A stretch of 64,000 bases of DNA, taken from an uncultured Roseburia sp. (GTDB taxonomy: Bacteria; Bacillota; Clostridia; Lachnospirales; Lachnospiraceae). The notes beneath the pieces are model-generated. The model saw only the letters and a list, made by a program, of their open reading frames with translations. It was not told the DNA's origin and ran no database searches. The position numbers and the translations under genes were made by a program. The stretch lies in assembly GCA_944380515.1 (NCBI GenBank), contig CALWHT010000041.1:1-64000 (forward strand), given 5' to 3'. Shown here in pieces: positions 1 to 8,053 of the stretch; position 1 is the stretch's first letter; each line of letters starts with the position of its first letter.

Positions 1-223
1 TCTCTTTCCGTTCTTCGGCAAGTTTTTCTTTGAGGTTTTCCTCACGCTTGTCATCGAACACAAGGAAAGCATTGTTAAGAAACTCTTTTTTCCAGTTCCG
101 CAACAGGTTTGGCTGGATGTTATTTTCTGCTGCAAGGGTATTGAGATCTTTCTCTCCCTTTAACAGCTCAATAACAAGATCTGATTTAAATTTGGCGCTA
201 AAACTTCTTCTTTGTCTGGACAT
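1..223 (-). CDS. IS3-family transposase OrfA, partial (runs off the window)
   Basis: The reading frame begins at the ATG complementary to 221-223 and stays open to the window edge, giving about 74 residues that start MSRQRRSFSAKFKSDLV. This is the N-terminal helix-turn-helix of IS3-type OrfA proteins, which bind the element's terminal repeats and are normally fused to the OrfB DDE integrase by programmed frameshifting. A GAGAGGA ribosome binding site lies 8-14 nt upstream. The remainder of OrfA and all of OrfB would lie outside the window. The element seems to have landed inside the neighbouring Fic-type gene. Confidence 0.8.
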   Translation of the reverse strand, partial: MSRQRRSFSAKFKSDLVIELLKGEKDLNTLAAENNIQPNLLRNWKKEFLNNAFLVFDDKREENLKEKLAEERKE

Positions 224-300
224 AGTAATGAATCCTCTCTTTCGTATTGATTTTAGTATATCAGATTCATTAAAAACTGTCCGAAAAAATGTCTTAATTT
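1..300 (-). mobile_element. 5' end of an IS3-type insertion sequence
   Basis: The segment between the transposase start (223) and the broken Fic frame (about 315) should contain the terminal inverted repeat of the element. The stretch reading CATTTTTTCGGACAG on the minus strand (about 278-292) is a plausible part of that end. The exact boundary and target duplication cannot be fixed because only one end is present. Confidence 0.5.
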
Positions 301-607
301 ATGAGACCATTATAGTCAGACGGTTTCCCTCAATATGGTTTGAGTTGTACGTTAAATCAATCTGTGTCTTATGGTAAATGCCGCCGGAGTATTTGCTTGC
401 TTTTTGTTCTTGCAAAATATCCAGCAATGTAATCGGATGTTCTTTCTTTTTGTTGGAGCGCTCCGGTTTTTCGGTGTTTTCCGGAATATTCCAAGTCTTT
501 CCGGTAAGAAAAGCACCCTGCACACGCCCGTGAGCACAATAATTTCTCACACTGCGTTCCGAGATATTCCATTTCTTTGCTATTTCATTAACTGAAAGGT
601 ATCGCAT
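299..607 (-). pseudogene. Fic-family protein, N-terminal remnant interrupted by an insertion sequence
   Basis: The 102-codon frame starts MRYLSVNEIAKKWNISERSV, a MerR/excisionase-like helix-turn-helix found at the N-terminus of some Fic proteins. It continues to IDLTYNSNHIEGNRLT, which is the conserved entry into the Fic domain (family members normally continue with HDQTR). After the codon for that T the sequence switches to IMVS and a stop, next to the IS end. The catalytic Fic motif (HPFxxGNGR) is therefore missing here. A GGAGGGAAG ribosome binding site precedes the ATG. The rest of the gene may lie beyond the IS or be deleted. Confidence 0.7.
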
Positions 608-722
608 CTGCTTCCCTCCGTTATAAATCGAATCAAAATACTACACTAATCTACGTTATAGTATATCACATTACCGGCAATAAATTAAATATTTCTCATT
701 TTCCTGTTTCATGTTTTTGCCG

Positions 723-975
723 TCAAACTGTCAATCGAAAGCTTTTCTTCTTTATAATTCTTTTCTCCGCTATCTCCTGCACTTCATACAGATGTGAAAA
801 AAGTTGTTTCGACAGTACAAGCTCATCATACATCATCGGATTATTTTCTTTTAAATATTCACGGTGCATACACCCGTATTTTCCGATGGCTTGTTCCTCA
901 TTGGGGAAGATCCGGGATGTAGTAATCTCCAACCAACACATATTCAATACCGTTTTTGTTCAATCCGTATTCCAT
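723..975 (-). pseudogene. TnpV-like transposon protein, frameshifted
   Basis: Starting from the ATG complementary to 973-975 the frame reads MEYGLNKNGIEYVLVGDYYI then PDLPQ and a stop. In the adjacent frame the sequence continues NEEQAIGKYGCMHREYLKEN and on to EIAEKRI. Joining the two gives the layout of TnpV proteins of Tn4451-type elements: GDYYIPDL, then IGxYGxxHxxYLKE. The break is a run of four C where three would keep the frame (about 900-915), that is, a single-base insertion. The C-terminus is also shorter than usual. The residue pattern is recognised by eye only. Confidence 0.6.
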
Positions 976-1049
976 AAACTTGACCTCGATTTTATGATTT
1001 TTGTCACATCAAGCTCATTAGTGTACTCCACCACAAATTCCTCTACATT

Positions 1050-1190
1050 CGTTATGTCTTTCTTTTCTAATCCCCATTCCTCAAAAAATAATGGGAATGG
1101 ATAAGTAGACAATGAAGATAACGTATGATTAGCACTGTTGAAGAGAAATTTTGCACCACAGGCAATGGAACAGAATTTTCCAATCTGTAA
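1050..1190 (-). pseudogene. Vat/XAT-type hexapeptide acetyltransferase fragment
   Basis: A minus-strand frame without a start codon reads LQIGKFCSIACGAKFLFNSA, NHTLSSLSTYPFPLFFEEWG. This resembles the left-handed beta-helix acetyltransferases that act on streptogramin A or chloramphenicol (VatA/CatB group), which carry IGKFCSIAxGxKF and a catalytic His in the NH motif. Only about 45 residues survive. Upstream sequence (1190-1330) holds no continuation, and downstream the frame drifts into the leader of the TnpV pseudogene, so it is a dead fragment. Confidence 0.55.
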
Positions 1191-1330
1191 ATTAAATAAT
1201 ATCTATTTAACTATTCCAGATAAAGCAATGCAGAACTTCACCCAAACCACCTCTCTTTTGATTCTTGCATATTCACTCTCTGACTCCTGCCATGGCAGAT
1301 AAATAAGATTATTTTTCCTTATATCGTATA

Positions 1331-1732
1331 TTACATATTGCCTCTAATTGTATCAACTAATGTAATATCTGCTGGTAACCATTCCACCGAGTCAAGTTGA
1401 TCCTTTGTTAACCACTTTGCCGCTTCATGCTCCTTTAGAACCAAATTACCCGACACAATCTCTGCCCAAAAACAATCCATAGAAAGATGGAAAGTTGGAT
1501 AATCATATTCAATCTTATCTATTAATTCTCCAACTGTTATTTCTGTATCTAATTCTTCCATAATCTCACGTTTAAGGGCTTTCTGTGGTGTTTCTCCTTC
1601 CTCTATCTTTCCTCCTGGAAACTCCCATCCTCCTTTAAAATCTCCATAACCTCTTTGTGTCGCAAATATAACAGGTTCACCATTTTCATTTTCTGCTTTC
1701 ATTATAGCTGCCACCACTCGTATTGTTTTCAT
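1331..1732 (-). CDS. Nudix (deoxy)nucleoside triphosphate pyrophosphohydrolase, MutT-like
   Basis: The product has 133 residues and carries a Nudix box at residues 41-60 (G41, E47, R55-E56, E59-E60), with Asp where the consensus has the final Gly. Family members hydrolyse nucleoside triphosphates, often oxidised or methylated ones, to monophosphate and pyrophosphate. The preceding WEFPGG and the overall size fit MutT/8-oxo-dGTP-type enzymes. It starts 9 nt after the helicase gene, and its AGGAG ribosome binding site overlaps that gene's stop codon. It is therefore the third gene of the HNH-helicase-Nudix operon. The substrate is unknown, and in this context it may process modified nucleotides or a nucleotide signal. 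Confidence 0.88.
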   Translation of the reverse strand: MKTIRVVAAIMKAENENGEPVIFATQRGYGDFKGGWEFPGGKIEEGETPQKALKREIMEELDTEITVGELIDKIEYDYPTFHLSMDCFWAEIVSGNLVLKEHEAAKWLTKDQLDSVEWLPADITLVDTIRGNM

Positions 1733-1741
1733 GTTGCACTC

Positions 1742-4738
1742 CTACTCATTTACAATATATTCATATAAATCTTCTCGTACCGGAACATCCAACAACCATT
1801 CAATTTCAACAGCTGTTTTGTTTGTATTTGGCATAATGAATTCTCTCACCTTGCCACTTGCTTGCATATGTCCGAGATAATAAAACTCTTTTGAAATTTT
1901 ATCGTCCTTATTTTTTCTTACAAACAAATGAACTTGTATTCCACGTTCCCCTGCGTGTAAAAAGTTCTGTACATCTTCAGAAGATATGGTTCTGCCGGAT
2001 TTTGATATTGCAATCAGACTACTGCTGCTCGTAAAGTGGTCTTCATATTTGGTAGTTTCACTAATATCCTCTGACTTGTCATAGTTTATAAACACAGGAA
2101 ACGTCTTTGTTTTCTTGTCAAACTTATATCCGCCAATATTTAACGGGACTTCGTTTGTTTCCCAATTCAACAGTCGGCAAGCGTCCTCATATGTATACTT
2201 CTGATACAATACAAAATCTGTTTCCTTATAAGTATCAGAAAAATCTCGTTCATATCGACTTATACCAAACTCAATAAGTTCCCTCAAAATCCCATAGAAA
2301 TTCCTATTAGCCAACATTTTCTCAAAAGATTTTGAAACATGGTAGTCTGTTCCGGCCCCTTCATCTTTTTCAATAAAAATGCACTCTGCATATGTATTTT
2401 TACTGGCGCCCGCCGGAAATTCATTTGTCATAATATTAATAATATTTTTCTTCTGGTCCTCACTCATCTGTATACCATAATCTGCTCTGAGTTCCTCCTT
2501 TAAACCAGCAAACAATAACAATCTATGTGCATATGTAAGCATTCTATTTAGAAGTTTTAGTTCTTGAATTCGTTTGCCACTGGCAAGCTTCTTAGATACA
2601 AACTCAATCACCTTTTCTTCTTCCGGTTCTAATCTTATTTCGTATTCCTTTTCATACTTCACAAGAAATTTATAATAGGAACCCAAGCTGTTGTTATCAA
2701 AAATACGGAGAACATCCATCTCACCATAATCATCAAAATCTTTTAGTCTTGGAATTCTTCCAAGCTTATTTTTAAGGTTTGTGTAATTTTCTTTAATAAG
2801 CTTAATATCACTAAAGTTTGCATTATCGACTGCCGCAAAAATACGCTTTTTACTTATTGCATCAAAGTGAATAGTACTTGCACCTGGAATTACGCGTCCA
2901 CCTTCCATAAGATATCTTCGAACATTATCTTTGTTATAACTACGATCTCCGGACAATGCAATCGGAATCATAAAGTTGTTCTTATAATTACCAATGAAAT
3001 CAAGAATTACAACATATTCTTTTTTCGCTGCTTTTCTAAGACCTCGCCCTAATTGCTGAATAAATACAATTGGCGACTGCGTTGGACGAAGCATGATAAC
3101 CTGATTCACTTCTACAATATCTGTTCCTTCTGAGAAAATATCGACCGTTATAATATAATCCAAATAATCATCTTTCTCAGACTGTACGTCCATTGTTAAT
3201 CGCTCAATTGCACCTGCTCTTACATCTTCGGAATCAGCACCGCTTAATGCAATTGTTCTCCAACCTTGCTCATTAAACTTCCTGGAAAGTTCTCTTGCTT
3301 CATTTATTCTGTTGCAGAAAATCAAGCCTTTTACACGCTTCCCCGAATATCCAAAGTATTCAGCCTGTTCCATAACATATTTCACACGGTCATCACTTGT
3401 CAGATATCTGAAATTTTCCAACTGTTCTTCTCTGGTGTTCCCTTCATCAGAAATCATTGCTAAATCTGTAATGCCAAAATAGTGAAATGGACACAGCAAA
3501 TCTTCTTCCATTGCCTGTTGTAATCGAATCTCGTATGCAATATTATGGTCAAAAATTTCATAAATATTGCGGCCTTCTATATTATCATCACACTTATCCG
3601 GTGTAGCTGTCATTCCTAACGTGAATTCTGGCGTAAAGTAGTCCATTATTCTTTTGTAACTTTCCGCACTTGTATGATGCGCCTCATCATAAATACACGC
3701 ATCAAAATAATCCTTTGGAAATCTCTCCAAATTTTCTTGCTTACTTAATGTCTGAACTGTTGCAAACACAAAGTCTGCCTCATAATCATGCTTTATTCCA
3801 GATACTAAACCTGTACTAATTCTGCTTCCGAATACTCTCTCAAAAGATTCCTTTGCCTGCTTTGCTATCTGATTTCGATGCACCAAAAACAAAACCCGTT
3901 TAAATCCAAGCTCTCTCATAGCAAAAGCAGAAGCATATGTTTTTCCTGTACCAGTTGCAGAAATCAATAATGCTTTATCTATCCCTTTTTTCCTAAGCTC
4001 TAACAGGTTATAAATAAAGGTTCTTTGCATCGAATTAGGCTGCAGCTTATATGCTTCCACCGATGGAATCGTCTCATTCTTTGCAATCCGTTTCTGTTCT
4101 AAAACCATTTTATGAAACAGCTGCTTCTCTTCATATTTTCTTCGATATTCCTCAATAAACTCTGCATAGCTCTTGGTATATTCAGTTGCATTCCAAAGCT
4201 TTTCAAATTCACCAAGAACTGAATTTACCATCTCTCCCCGACTTGTAGATACCAACTTCGTATTCCATTCCATATTTCGGGTTAATGCATCCTGCGTCAA
4301 ATTAGAACTACCGATAATAAACCTATATTCTTCACCCTTTTGAAAAATATATCCCTTCGTATGAAAGCCATTTCCAGCTCGTTCAGTCTGATACATACGA
4401 AGCTCAATGTTGGAAAGACTCGCAATTGTATCTAATGCTACCGGATCACTGAAGCTGAGATAATCTGTAGTTAATATTCTACCGTGCACGCCTTTTCTCT
4501 CTAACTCCTGTAAGGTTTGCAAAAGCGGTGTAATTCCGCCCCTTGTTATAAAAGCAACACTGATTGTAAAGCTATCGCATCTTAACAATTCATCTTCAAT
4601 CGCAGAAAATACTTTCTGACCATTCTTATTGTCATTGTACACAAATTGCGGTCTGTACGCTAAATTAGAGTTAAATGTACTATTGATAAAAGCCGTGTGA
4701 AATCCATCTTGCAATTCCACTATTTTCTCATCCGTCAT
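1742..4738 (-). CDS. PLD-like nuclease / SF2 DEAD-DEAH helicase / DUF3427 fusion protein
   Basis: This 998-residue protein has three parts. Residues about 45-160 form a phospholipase-D-like fold with the HxK signature (H126, K128) and GSSN (143-146), which usually forms half of a nuclease or binding active site. Residues about 235-600 are a superfamily 2 helicase with Walker A ATGTGKT (261-267), DEAH (351-354), TATP (377-380) and a motif VI region QQLGRGLRK. The C-terminal part (about 640-998) resembles DUF3427. Proteins of this architecture are found in variable, defence-rich loci; their biochemical job is not settled. The gene follows the HNH gene by 29 nt and precedes the Nudix gene by 9 nt, so co-translation is likely. 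Confidence 0.88.
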   Translation of the reverse strand: MTDEKIVELQDGFHTAFINSTFNSNLAYRPQFVYNDNKNGQKVFSAIEDELLRCDSFTISVAFITRGGITPLLQTLQELERKGVHGRILTTDYLSFSDPVALDTIASLSNIELRMYQTERAGNGFHTKGYIFQKGEEYRFIIGSSNLTQDALTRNMEWNTKLVSTSRGEMVNSVLGEFEKLWNATEYTKSYAEFIEEYRRKYEEKQLFHKMVLEQKRIAKNETIPSVEAYKLQPNSMQRTFIYNLLELRKKGIDKALLISATGTGKTYASAFAMRELGFKRVLFLVHRNQIAKQAKESFERVFGSRISTGLVSGIKHDYEADFVFATVQTLSKQENLERFPKDYFDACIYDEAHHTSAESYKRIMDYFTPEFTLGMTATPDKCDDNIEGRNIYEIFDHNIAYEIRLQQAMEEDLLCPFHYFGITDLAMISDEGNTREEQLENFRYLTSDDRVKYVMEQAEYFGYSGKRVKGLIFCNRINEARELSRKFNEQGWRTIALSGADSEDVRAGAIERLTMDVQSEKDDYLDYIITVDIFSEGTDIVEVNQVIMLRPTQSPIVFIQQLGRGLRKAAKKEYVVILDFIGNYKNNFMIPIALSGDRSYNKDNVRRYLMEGGRVIPGASTIHFDAISKKRIFAAVDNANFSDIKLIKENYTNLKNKLGRIPRLKDFDDYGEMDVLRIFDNNSLGSYYKFLVKYEKEYEIRLEPEEEKVIEFVSKKLASGKRIQELKLLNRMLTYAHRLLLFAGLKEELRADYGIQMSEDQKKNIINIMTNEFPAGASKNTYAECIFIEKDEGAGTDYHVSKSFEKMLANRNFYGILRELIEFGISRYERDFSDTYKETDFVLYQKYTYEDACRLLNWETNEVPLNIGGYKFDKKTKTFPVFINYDKSEDISETTKYEDHFTSSSSLIAISKSGRTISSEDVQNFLHAGERGIQVHLFVRKNKDDKISKEFYYLGHMQASGKVREFIMPNTNKTAVEIEWLLDVPVREDLYEYIVNE

Positions 4739-4767
4739 CCCAACTACCTCTTATCATTTAAAATACT

Positions 4768-5928
4768 TTATACTGCAAGCCTCTTATCCCACACATCATA
4801 GCCTTGTCTTCTTGCTGAATCATATATTGGACGCATATTCTTCTCCAAAATTCCATAAAACTCTATATCCGAATTACCTTTACAATATAATTCCTTGTTC
4901 GCCCAAATAGAATGTAAATTGTCTCTGTAACAGGCTTCGTATAACTTTCGGATACCTTCTATTTCATAAATCATTTCATACATTATATACTGATTCTTCG
5001 CAAACCGCATAAAAAAATCATTCCAGTCCGGCAATCTATTATTTTTAGAAGAATTCAATGACGAATCCATCGGCATCAAATTCCAAAGTTCATCATTCAT
5101 CACAAACGACCATGGAATAAAGTGATCCAAATCATACTTCATCTTATCAATAGGCTCATCTGTAAATACATCCACTACGCTGCGCATAGCTAATATCCCA
5201 TCCCACAACTTACGCACATGGGATAATTTACGCATCTTTTCATCCAACGGCGCAAGCTTATATATCAACCCCGGAACTTCCGGATTATTATTTTGCAGCC
5301 ATTTCACTTTTTCGCACTGAATCCAACCCAAAATCGACACAGTGTTGTCTTTAATCATCTGAATCCACGCATCACTAAATGAAAGTTTTCTATTTAAGCC
5401 ATTCTCGGTTCCAAATGTATAGGGCAGCAAAATATCATTTGCGCTTAATTTATTATAATAAGCTATCATTCTGCCCGCACTACTATCTAAACTAATTTTA
5501 TCGCCTGTCTTATTTGCAAACCCTGATAGTGCCTTGTATGGCACATTAAGGGTCATTGCCTGCTTTTCTGCATGGATCTGCTTATCATACTGTTTGATTA
5601 CATTTTTTATCTCCACTTTCGATGCATTTGCCGGTAAGTCACTTAATTCCTTAAGTTTAGTCACAGCTCTCTCCAGGTTATCTTTGATTCCTCCAGTACC
5701 CCAAACGCCGCTTAAATGAATATGAAATTCAAGAACCGAATACCACGCATTTGAAATCATTTCATCTATGATTTCATCATAAGTAGCTTCGGTTCTATTT
5801 TCAGAAATGAGCTGCACAATGGCTTCCAGCCAATAAAACTTATAGCAGTAAGAAGGATTCTTCATCATCTGTGAAAACCCTTCAATGTCCAATTTGTTAT
5901 AATAATGTGCATCAATTGTTAATTGCAT
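4768..5928 (-). CDS. HNH endonuclease domain protein, first gene of the helicase operon
   Basis: The 386-residue product has an HNH core at about residues 265-300: LDHFIPWSF (D268-H269), a central Asn in LWNLMPM, and a final SSKNNRLP. This His-Asn-Asn layout is also seen in the HNH domains of restriction enzymes and Cas9. The N-terminal 250 residues are alpha-helical with no recognised domain and may act in target recognition or protein contacts. Likely activity is Mg-dependent cleavage of DNA. The start ATG is preceded by GGAG about 12 nt upstream, slightly far. It opens the operon with the PLD-helicase and the Nudix hydrolase. Confidence 0.85.
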   Translation of the reverse strand: MQLTIDAHYYNKLDIEGFSQMMKNPSYCYKFYWLEAIVQLISENRTEATYDEIIDEMISNAWYSVLEFHIHLSGVWGTGGIKDNLERAVTKLKELSDLPANASKVEIKNVIKQYDKQIHAEKQAMTLNVPYKALSGFANKTGDKISLDSSAGRMIAYYNKLSANDILLPYTFGTENGLNRKLSFSDAWIQMIKDNTVSILGWIQCEKVKWLQNNNPEVPGLIYKLAPLDEKMRKLSHVRKLWDGILAMRSVVDVFTDEPIDKMKYDLDHFIPWSFVMNDELWNLMPMDSSLNSSKNNRLPDWNDFFMRFAKNQYIMYEMIYEIEGIRKLYEACYRDNLHSIWANKELYCKGNSDIEFYGILEKNMRPIYDSARRQGYDVWDKRLAV

Positions 5929-7102: not shown

Positions 7103-8053
7103 TCAGCCCAAACGCATTATCTGCTTCCAATAGCTGCTGATATGTGCAAATACTGCTTCTGACTTATTCTTCACATATTCAAGCAGCTCTGCATCATCAC
7201 TGTTTTTCGTTGCATATTTTGCAACGGTTTCCTTTACCAACGCCATGATGCTTTTTTGATTGGATTGCGTCATATTAAAAAATAAACTTCTCAGTGTCTT
7301 TTTGTAAATCTCCTGTTCCTCCTCTGAATGAACGATTCCGCCAATATATGCATTCTTCTTTCGTTCCGCTATCTGCGCATTACTTGCGCCTGCGGCCCTG
7401 AGTTCATCATCCGATACTTGTTTTCCGTTTGCAATCGCTGCATAAAGCCTCTCCTCCGCTGACTGATACCCATTGATAATACCTGATGTATAATCATAAT
7501 ATTTATGGATGAGATAATCAAACTGCTCTTTCTGTTCTCCGGACAAGTTCTTATTTGAAAAATACAGTAAAGCAGCGGCAGAAGACTCCAACTCCAATTG
7601 CGCTTCATACGAATACAATTCCTTTGATGGATCTCCGCCGGAGAAAAAGGAATACCCCTCAACTTTCCCGGTCGCAAAATCAATTCCGCAGGAACTCCGC
7701 AACAGCACATTTTCCATTGTATCTCTCAGATTGGATATCTCTGCCTCGCTTTTCCCCTCATAATATCCAACGGAAGAAAGATATTTGTCAAACACATTCC
7801 ACTTGTTCATGGATTCTACGGCAAACGCTTCCGATGAGACAGAGGAAAGTCCGGCGGCTCCCCAGTATGCCTTTCCCGCAGTGATATTGACATTCATTTC
7901 CGTAAACATCATATATTTACTTTTTCCAGATTCTGATATATCCGCTGTTACCGCATCCGCAGTGCTGCCGCTCCCTCCAGGGACAGCCTCCGAGGTGTGC
8001 TGTTTTTGCTTATTGCCTACCATGTATGTATCATTAAGAAGTATAGAAATCAT
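7103..8053 (-). CDS. Hypothetical protein (possible surface/flagellum-associated family), N-terminus probably frameshifted
   Basis: This 316-residue product has no recognised domain, signal peptide or membrane segment. It is Ser/Ala/Tyr-rich with a largely helical C-terminal half, in style like the DUF4885/DUF6033-type proteins at 21.7-25.2 kb. The ATG at 8053 has no ribosome binding site. The well-placed AAGGAGGAATT lies before another ATG at 8078 whose frame (MRTNHINMDDFYTS) stops after 14 codons; removal of one T near 8045-8050 would join the two. The gene is thus either a recent pseudogene or starts at an internal ATG (MVGNKQ). Confidence 0.6.
   Translation of the reverse strand: MISILLNDTYMVGNKQKQHTSEAVPGGSGSTADAVTADISESGKSKYMMFTEMNVNITAGKAYWGAAGLSSVSSEAFAVESMNKWNVFDKYLSSVGYYEGKSEAEISNLRDTMENVLLRSSCGIDFATGKVEGYSFFSGGDPSKELYSYEAQLELESSAAALLYFSNKNLSGEQKEQFDYLIHKYYDYTSGIINGYQSAEERLYAAIANGKQVSDDELRAAGASNAQIAERKKNAYIGGIVHSEEEQEIYKKTLRSLFFNMTQSNQKSIMALVKETVAKYATKNSDDAELLEYVKNKSEAVFAHISSYWKQIMRLG

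Follow-up and report, generated by a model that had tools for sequence, protein, structure and literature searches.

The operon described here pairs a full-length homologue of the type IV restriction enzyme SauUSI with a small Nudix hydrolase, and this pair, rather than a set of three genes including the neighboring HNH nuclease, is the unit conserved across genomes. The Nudix protein lies close to enzymes with measured activity on 5-methyl-dCTP. On balance we think it probable, with modest confidence, that this is a type IV restriction module of the SauUSI type in which the Nudix protein guards the nucleotide pool, so that the target base does not enter host DNA.

The operon and its SauUSI-type enzyme

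The window, the whole 64,000-nt stretch of DNA analyzed, carries three intact minus-strand open reading frames in the order HNH, PLD/SF2/DUF3427, Nudix, separated by gaps of 29 and 9 nt. The central gene (1742..4738, minus strand) encodes 998 aa with Pfam matches to PLDc_2 (49 bits), ResIII (133), Helicase_C (43) and DUF3427 (309), all over their cut-offs. Its PLD-like nuclease domain (4193..4528, residues 71-182) contains H126, K128, N146 and E157, which we take to be the catalytic residues and which are invariant in a 12-row alignment. The SF2 translocase/ATPase (2996..4045, residues ~232-581) contains SATGTGKT at 260-267 and DEAHH at 351-355, presumably the Walker A and DEAH motifs. Both sets are intact in sequence and alignment. 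DUF3427 (1754..2602, by Pfam), with its SRA-like target-recognition domain, follows at the C terminus; the SRA fold is as described in the available text of the SauUSI mechanism paper (PMC7913695).

This protein aligned with SauUSI (7clg) at 705.6 bits (E 9.2e-211, residues 10-997 on 9-953), the sole full-length match among the nine solved sequences found. The PADLOC model mREase_IV (PDLC03658), for type IV methyl-directed restriction, matched nearly the whole protein (E 1.7e-221). A single chain thus holds an N-terminal PLD nuclease, an SF2 ATPase and a C-terminal DUF3427/SRA domain in the order seen in SauUSI, and by this homology the protein is a full-length homologue of SauUSI, an ATP-dependent type IV restriction enzyme. 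SauUSI is described, in the portions of the two reports available, as a PLD nuclease with an SF2 translocase and an SRA-fold target domain that cuts DNA carrying 5mC or 5hmC in S5mCNGS and needs ATP (PMC7913695, PMC3874153). We infer a similar dependence on 5mC for the nuclease in the window. SauUSI has the same Nudix neighbor, although its Nudix gene lies upstream rather than downstream, and the window has an HNH gene in addition.

The initial annotation, made from the letters of the sequence, had described three packed genes with intact key motifs, and the reading frames, Pfam matches and alignments agree on both counts (including the Nudix box discussed below). It had also known of no named system with exactly this set, but the central protein does belong to a named family, that of SauUSI, which has been studied both biochemically and structurally. 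A match of the trio to a described system, which that annotation had listed as a result that would refute it, is thus half present, through the SauUSI-like enzyme. The known multi-gene PLD-helicase systems DISARM and Mokosh were dropped on score; DISARM DrmC reached 20 of 133 bits and the PLD anti-phage protein model NF042964 24.8 of 1100 bits, both under the curated cut-offs. PHROGs returned helicase and Nudix families, plus a few others with unknown function.

Two related loci delimit the block. In one (L057), the alignment covers window positions 1330-5891 with 80% DNA identity and stops there; its contig continues 3.2 kb past the HNH side and just 0.3 kb past the Nudix side. The other (L056) aligns over 1367-4705 only, with 7.6 kb of its contig lying beyond the Nudix side. 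These limits suggest that the operon is more than a chance assembly. Between the window and L057, dN is 0.075 for the 998-aa gene, 0.092 for the Nudix gene and 0.092 for the HNH gene; dS reaches 1.39 in the 998-aa gene, giving a ratio of 0.05, and is saturated in the Nudix and HNH genes. Most changes in all three genes have thus been silent. G+C content is 36-37% over positions 1-5928 vs 49.5% over 14000-64000, and the low-G+C block therefore looks imported. The earlier picture of an intact cassette that is under selection and probably defensive has been borne out, and the cassette lies in DNA of unusual composition. Of the decayed mobile surroundings proposed with it, TnpV and a transposase HTH frame are indeed present: positions 1-1330, within the same low-G+C block, hold a transposase HTH open reading frame, a weak HTH frame and a TnpV fragment. 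The proposed fic gene could not be confirmed, since a profile search with the frame at 299-607 gave only weak HTH matches under cut-off.

Conservation of the SauUSI-like/Nudix pair

We assembled 145 loci: 26 around DUF3427 genes of relatives, 80 named loci from a contig scan, and 39 of the 44 DUF3427 places found in an even draw of 299 genomes from the phylum. Profile models sorted these into 103 core loci, with a full-length SauUSI-like gene, and 23 divergent loci, leaving out 19 with no SauUSI-like frame of at least 800 aa. Loci were treated as uninformative when they had no Nudix gene and the contig ended less than 1.5 kb from the SauUSI-like gene on a side (6 core, 2 divergent). Of the 97 informative core loci, 93 had a Nudix gene no more than 6 kb from the SauUSI-like gene, and 85 of these had it within 300 bp; for a divergent DUF3427 branch of ~1050 aa, one was nearby in 9 of 21 informative loci. 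Neighbor clustering of 106 loci, with no preset query, also ranked Nudix top, with 95 loci (90 of them within 2 kb), ahead of HNH (21) and the next family (15). That Nudix cluster includes nine unlabeled members and one labeled HNH, and the profile-model count is the cleaner of the two. The divergent ~1050-aa proteins (e.g. L152, L156) have PLD and SF2 domains and may read another modification. Near DUF3427 genes we also observed a 338-aa protein with two Nudix stretches (L053:8127-9143) and a Nudix-GNAT fusion (L055:3135-4124).

Three of the four core loci without a nearby Nudix gene (L086, L110, L145, L147) have one elsewhere in the genome (G445, G447, and G371, at 14 kb distance); in the fourth genome, G301, none was found among at most 14 candidates scored per genome, a depth at which misses are possible. 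A genome-wide check of 11 genomes, ten with named Nudix-less loci plus one control (L117), found for the ten a strong match elsewhere in six, a weak or cut match in two and none in two.

The Nudix gene is downstream on the same strand in 71 core loci, upstream on the same strand in 15, and downstream on the opposite strand in 7. On a FastTree tree of the SauUSI-like proteins these three arrangements need six switches, and well-supported branches alone force 4, 5 and 4 switches for the single arrangements. The tree held 104 full-length core rows including the window, 102 of them different, so a few loci are duplicated; L041 and L063 look like one contig, and L033 and L133 come from one genome. 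The pairing has been kept through repeated rearrangement, which argues for selection on the pair.

At the genome level, the Nudix subfamily (at least 100 bits) occurs in 26 of 27 DUF3427-positive relatives vs 19 of 118 other relatives. In the phylum draw it is present in 13 of 14 genomes with a core-type gene, 17 of 27 with a divergent one, and 61 of 258 others. Neither comparison corrects for kinship, and a genome whose DUF3427 match fell under cut-off (one per draw) was scored as lacking the gene. With the family model, the partner Nudix of seven genomes reached 144-196 bits, whereas the other Nudix proteins listed scored at most 50; by these scores the partner is a specific Nudix subfamily and not any Nudix. 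Among 198 Bacteroidales genomes, 13 have the Nudix (3gwy query, E ≤ 1e-20) and six have DUF3427; the Nudix is present in both genomes with a core-type gene (adjacent in G483) and absent from all four that have a divergent gene.

The pairing extends to SauUSI itself. Next to a 953-aa protein nearly identical to 7clg, a Nudix gene ends 1 nt before the restriction gene, in a record labeled Staphylococcus phage and UNVERIFIED that we take for S. aureus DNA. A protein of solved structure, 5x1x, which was deposited under the name Mutator mutT protein, is nearly identical to this Nudix protein; nothing relevant appeared among the literature matches listed for it. The word Nudix does not appear in the available text of the SauUSI mechanism paper (PMC7913695). 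In Streptococcus suis, all 23 occurrences of the PADLOC candidate family PDC-S07, which our Nudix protein matches, were co-localized with RM type IV, according to a report whose available text also lacks the word Nudix (PMC12813430, 2026). The nuclease family and this anonymous co-localization in S. suis are thus already known. Among the literature matches listed, for a search mostly within open-access journals, we found no paper proposing a Nudix-SauUSI pool mechanism.

Plasmid and phage collections contained 28 records with a match (18 + 10), of which 12 were examined. A Nudix gene sat beside the SauUSI-like gene in seven: six of the seven core loci (L299, L300, L302, L303, L307, L308) and the intermediate L309. 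None was found within 4 kb in the remaining core locus, from Fusobacterium (L301), or beside the gene in the divergent L304, L305, L306 and L310. In Latilactobacillus curvatus, Lactiplantibacillus plantarum and Hymenobacter canadensis the pair is carried by mobilizable plasmids, where a gene annotated as (deoxy)nucleoside triphosphate pyrophosphohydrolase immediately precedes the SauUSI-like gene. On the L. plantarum plasmid, a MazG-like pyrophosphohydrolase directly follows the pair (L303:6880-7200), perhaps as a second pool-cleaning enzyme.

The same subfamily also occurs unlinked to SauUSI-like genes, in 22 loci, with neighbors annotated in ten. Four of these ten (L182, L185, L187, L193) lie in restriction or HNH contexts, one (L186) is beside ABC-3C and PLD genes, and five showed no restriction gene among their annotated neighbors. 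The neighbor at L185 is an HNH protein that a type IV model matches in part. At L187 (7602-11315), a 5mC context, the Nudix gene has as neighbors a C5-methylase, a type II restriction enzyme resembling MutH, and Vsr.

Predicted substrate and role of the Nudix protein

The Nudix gene (1331..1732, minus strand) encodes 133 aa with a Pfam NUDIX match of 67 bits, over cut-off, and a match to PADLOC PDC-S07 of 161 bits (E 2.6e-48, residues 1-130 of 133 on 3-129 of 135). PADLOC lists PDC-S07 as a separate phage defense candidate with unnamed function. The Nudix box (1544..1612, residues 41-63) fits the pattern G x5 E x7 RE u x EE, as given in a published abstract, and its G41, E47, R55, E56, E59 and E60 are invariant in all 36 aligned sequences. 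At the site of Asp122 (codon 1367..1369, minus strand), E. coli MutT has an Asn (Asn119), and E. coli NudG, like the window protein, has Asp. The site is Asp in 36 of 36 aligned sequences. In a larger set, excluding linked proteins of more than 160 aa and unlinked proteins of more than 175 aa, 95 of the 96 linked rows have Asp and the other has a gap; the 21 unlinked rows, E. coli NudG and MutT among them, divide into 16 with Asp and 5 with Asn. On a Nudix tree, linked and unlinked rows intermix with 16 changes, the alignment having too few columns to resolve them.

The best solved match to the window Nudix, by both sequence and predicted fold (model pLDDT 96), is 3gwy (Q5LBB1_BACFN), at 42% identity; the second fold match is mycobacterial MutT2 in complex with 5mdCTP. 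In sequence score 3gwy leads with 88.5 bits, and NudG (57.9) and MutT (57.7) tie behind it. With its Nudix box, its nearest homology and Asp at the MutT Asn site, the protein falls within the group of 3gwy, NudG and MutT2. E. coli NudG (Orf135) and MutT2 are 5-methyl-dCTP hydrolases of the same fold; NudG shares the Asp, although it is only 33.6% identical to the window Nudix, and the 6 kb read around nudG in E. coli K-12 contained no restriction gene. The 3gwy protein is the closest solved relative, but it was characterized alone. Its own nearest relative found (G463, 54% identity) is beside a PLD-SF2 protein cut by a contig end.

According to the available text of its characterization, the 3gwy protein is a pyrophosphohydrolase with kcat/Km values (M-1 s-1) of 6.7x10^6 for 5-Me-CTP, 4.8x10^6 for 5-Me-dCTP, 4.4x10^6 for 5-hydroxymethyl-dCTP and 8.5x10^4 for 5-OH-dCTP, with canonical NTPs hydrolyzed far less (PMC5158307). 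Comparing the two characterized proteins, its favored substrates are nucleotides of exactly the two bases recognized by SauUSI. By analogy, we predict that the window Nudix is a 5-methyl/5-hydroxymethyl-dCTP pyrophosphohydrolase. The activity also occurs outside this group, as E. coli MutT is reported to hydrolyze 5-methyl-dCTP weakly (PMC3744803). The suggestion of the initial annotation that the Nudix enzyme is a real partner able to handle modified nucleotides is consistent with both the locus counts and this kinship.

These observations suggest a mechanism in which protection acts on the pool rather than on the DNA. The SRA-like C-terminal domain would recognize 5mC or 5hmC in incoming DNA, the SF2 motor would translocate and the PLD domain would cut. 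Since the enzyme has neither a cognate methylase nor a modification that protects the host, the cell would be safe only as long as the target base is absent from the recognized context of its own DNA. Shredded methylated DNA, or a modifying phage, could feed 5-methyl- or 5-hydroxymethyl-dCMP into the pool, and the Nudix protein would remove the modified triphosphates before a polymerase could use them, as an antidote. We give about an even chance to the broader proposal that SauUSI-type enzymes, S. aureus SauUSI included, are two-gene systems of self/non-self discrimination, in which a 5mC/5hmC nuclease is joined by a dedicated pool pyrophosphohydrolase as the counterpart of a cognate methylase. 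If true, modification-dependent restriction would have a new self-protection arm, cleaning nucleotides instead of marking DNA, and the PDC-S07 candidate family would gain a concrete substrate and role. The proposal would bear on an enzyme reported to be a major barrier against gene transfer into S. aureus (PMC7913695) and described as sufficient as a single polypeptide (PMC3874153), as far as the available texts of these papers go.

Two of the unlinked Nudix genes, in 5mC (L187) and type IV (L185) contexts, speak for an antidote. Several observations speak against it: the subfamily is also present in the genomes counted above that lack a DUF3427 gene, Asp122 is common in unlinked rows too, the divergent branch is paired in fewer than half of its informative loci, and no Nudix gene was found near the SauUSI-like gene of the Fusobacterium locus or in G301. 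Furthermore, SauUSI is described as working alone in vitro and when cloned in E. coli (PMC3874153, available text); E. coli, however, has NudG. Mutual exclusion of C5-methylases and SauUSI-like genes was not found: a C5-methylase is present in 17 of 27 DUF3427-positive vs 80 of 118 other relatives. C5-methylases being equally common in DUF3427-positive genomes, hosts appear to tolerate some 5mC. The genome that holds the window yielded no C5-methylase.

The Nudix protein could instead belong to the attack, destroying the hydroxymethyl- or methyl-dCTP of base-modifying phages and so starving their replication, with the SauUSI-like enzyme cutting modified DNA. The 3gwy protein does hydrolyze 5-hydroxymethyl-dCTP as well as 5-methyl-dCTP (PMC5158307, available text), and PADLOC places the family among its phage defense candidates (the meaning of PDC is given in the accessible part of PMC11514479). 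We nevertheless consider this unlikely: removing the modified nucleotide would favor unmodified phage DNA, which SauUSI leaves uncut, setting the two activities against each other, and the same subfamily is found without a DUF3427 gene. Still less probable, in our estimation, is general house-cleaning of the MutT kind, directed at 8-oxo-dGTP, with the gene linked to a restriction gene merely by hitchhiking in an island. Nudix genes are common, and 5x1x bears a mutT name. Yet the MutT model TIGR00586 gives the window Nudix 88.6 bits, under its cut-off of 97.9; Asp replaces the MutT Asn throughout the 36-sequence alignment; a single partner copy stood far above the other listed Nudix proteins in each of the seven genomes scored; and the pairing stays while the arrangement changes. 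A guard on the nucleotide pool remains the reading we prefer.

The HNH nuclease as a facultative accessory

The HNH gene (4768..5928, minus strand) encodes 386 aa with a Pfam HNH_4 match of 38.7 bits, over cut-off; the nuclease motif (5029..5169, residues 254-300) includes D268-H269 and N292. An obligate three-part defense complex of HNH, SauUSI-like enzyme and Nudix would fit the intact operon with its 29- and 9-nt gaps, the same gene order in four further loci (L057, L058, L067, L092), and the enrichment of HNH in DUF3427-positive relatives (17 of 27, vs 19 of 118 others; hand count). We reject it as very improbable, as an HNH gene lies within 2 kb in only 17 of 106 loci, and none is present in L056, the nearest relative at 88% protein identity, for which 8 kb of sequence is available on either side. 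HNH genes also occur apart from SauUSI-like genes: of 36 HNH-positive genomes among the 145 relatives, eight have the gene at most ~7 kb away from DUF3427, and G020 adds a ninth, where it is beside a SauUSI-like gene cut by a contig end. Co-occurrence of the three genes, which the initial annotation had named in advance as a check, accordingly stands for the SauUSI-like/Nudix pair and not for HNH, which is a facultative, interchangeable accessory nuclease.

A fold search with the HNH model (pLDDT 88) gave no match at E ≤ 0.001, only weak Cas9-HNH-like ones, and the N-terminal ~240 residues gave no clear structural match. PHROGs returned no family for this protein. In a Roseburia hominis MAG, HNH homology is found in two parts ~5.5 kb apart (L133:1133-2185 and 7710-7904), the second immediately ahead of the SauUSI-like gene, a pattern that resembles a gene interrupted by an insertion. 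Elsewhere, HNH genes are found beside a small SAM methyltransferase of ~200 aa, identified by Pfam in L182, L193, L258 and L269 and by clustering only in L251, L253 and L256, possibly as a separate defense module. In one further locus (L043:3342-4355), the HNH gene is beside a Nudix-methyltransferase fusion, its methyltransferase part identified by Pfam.
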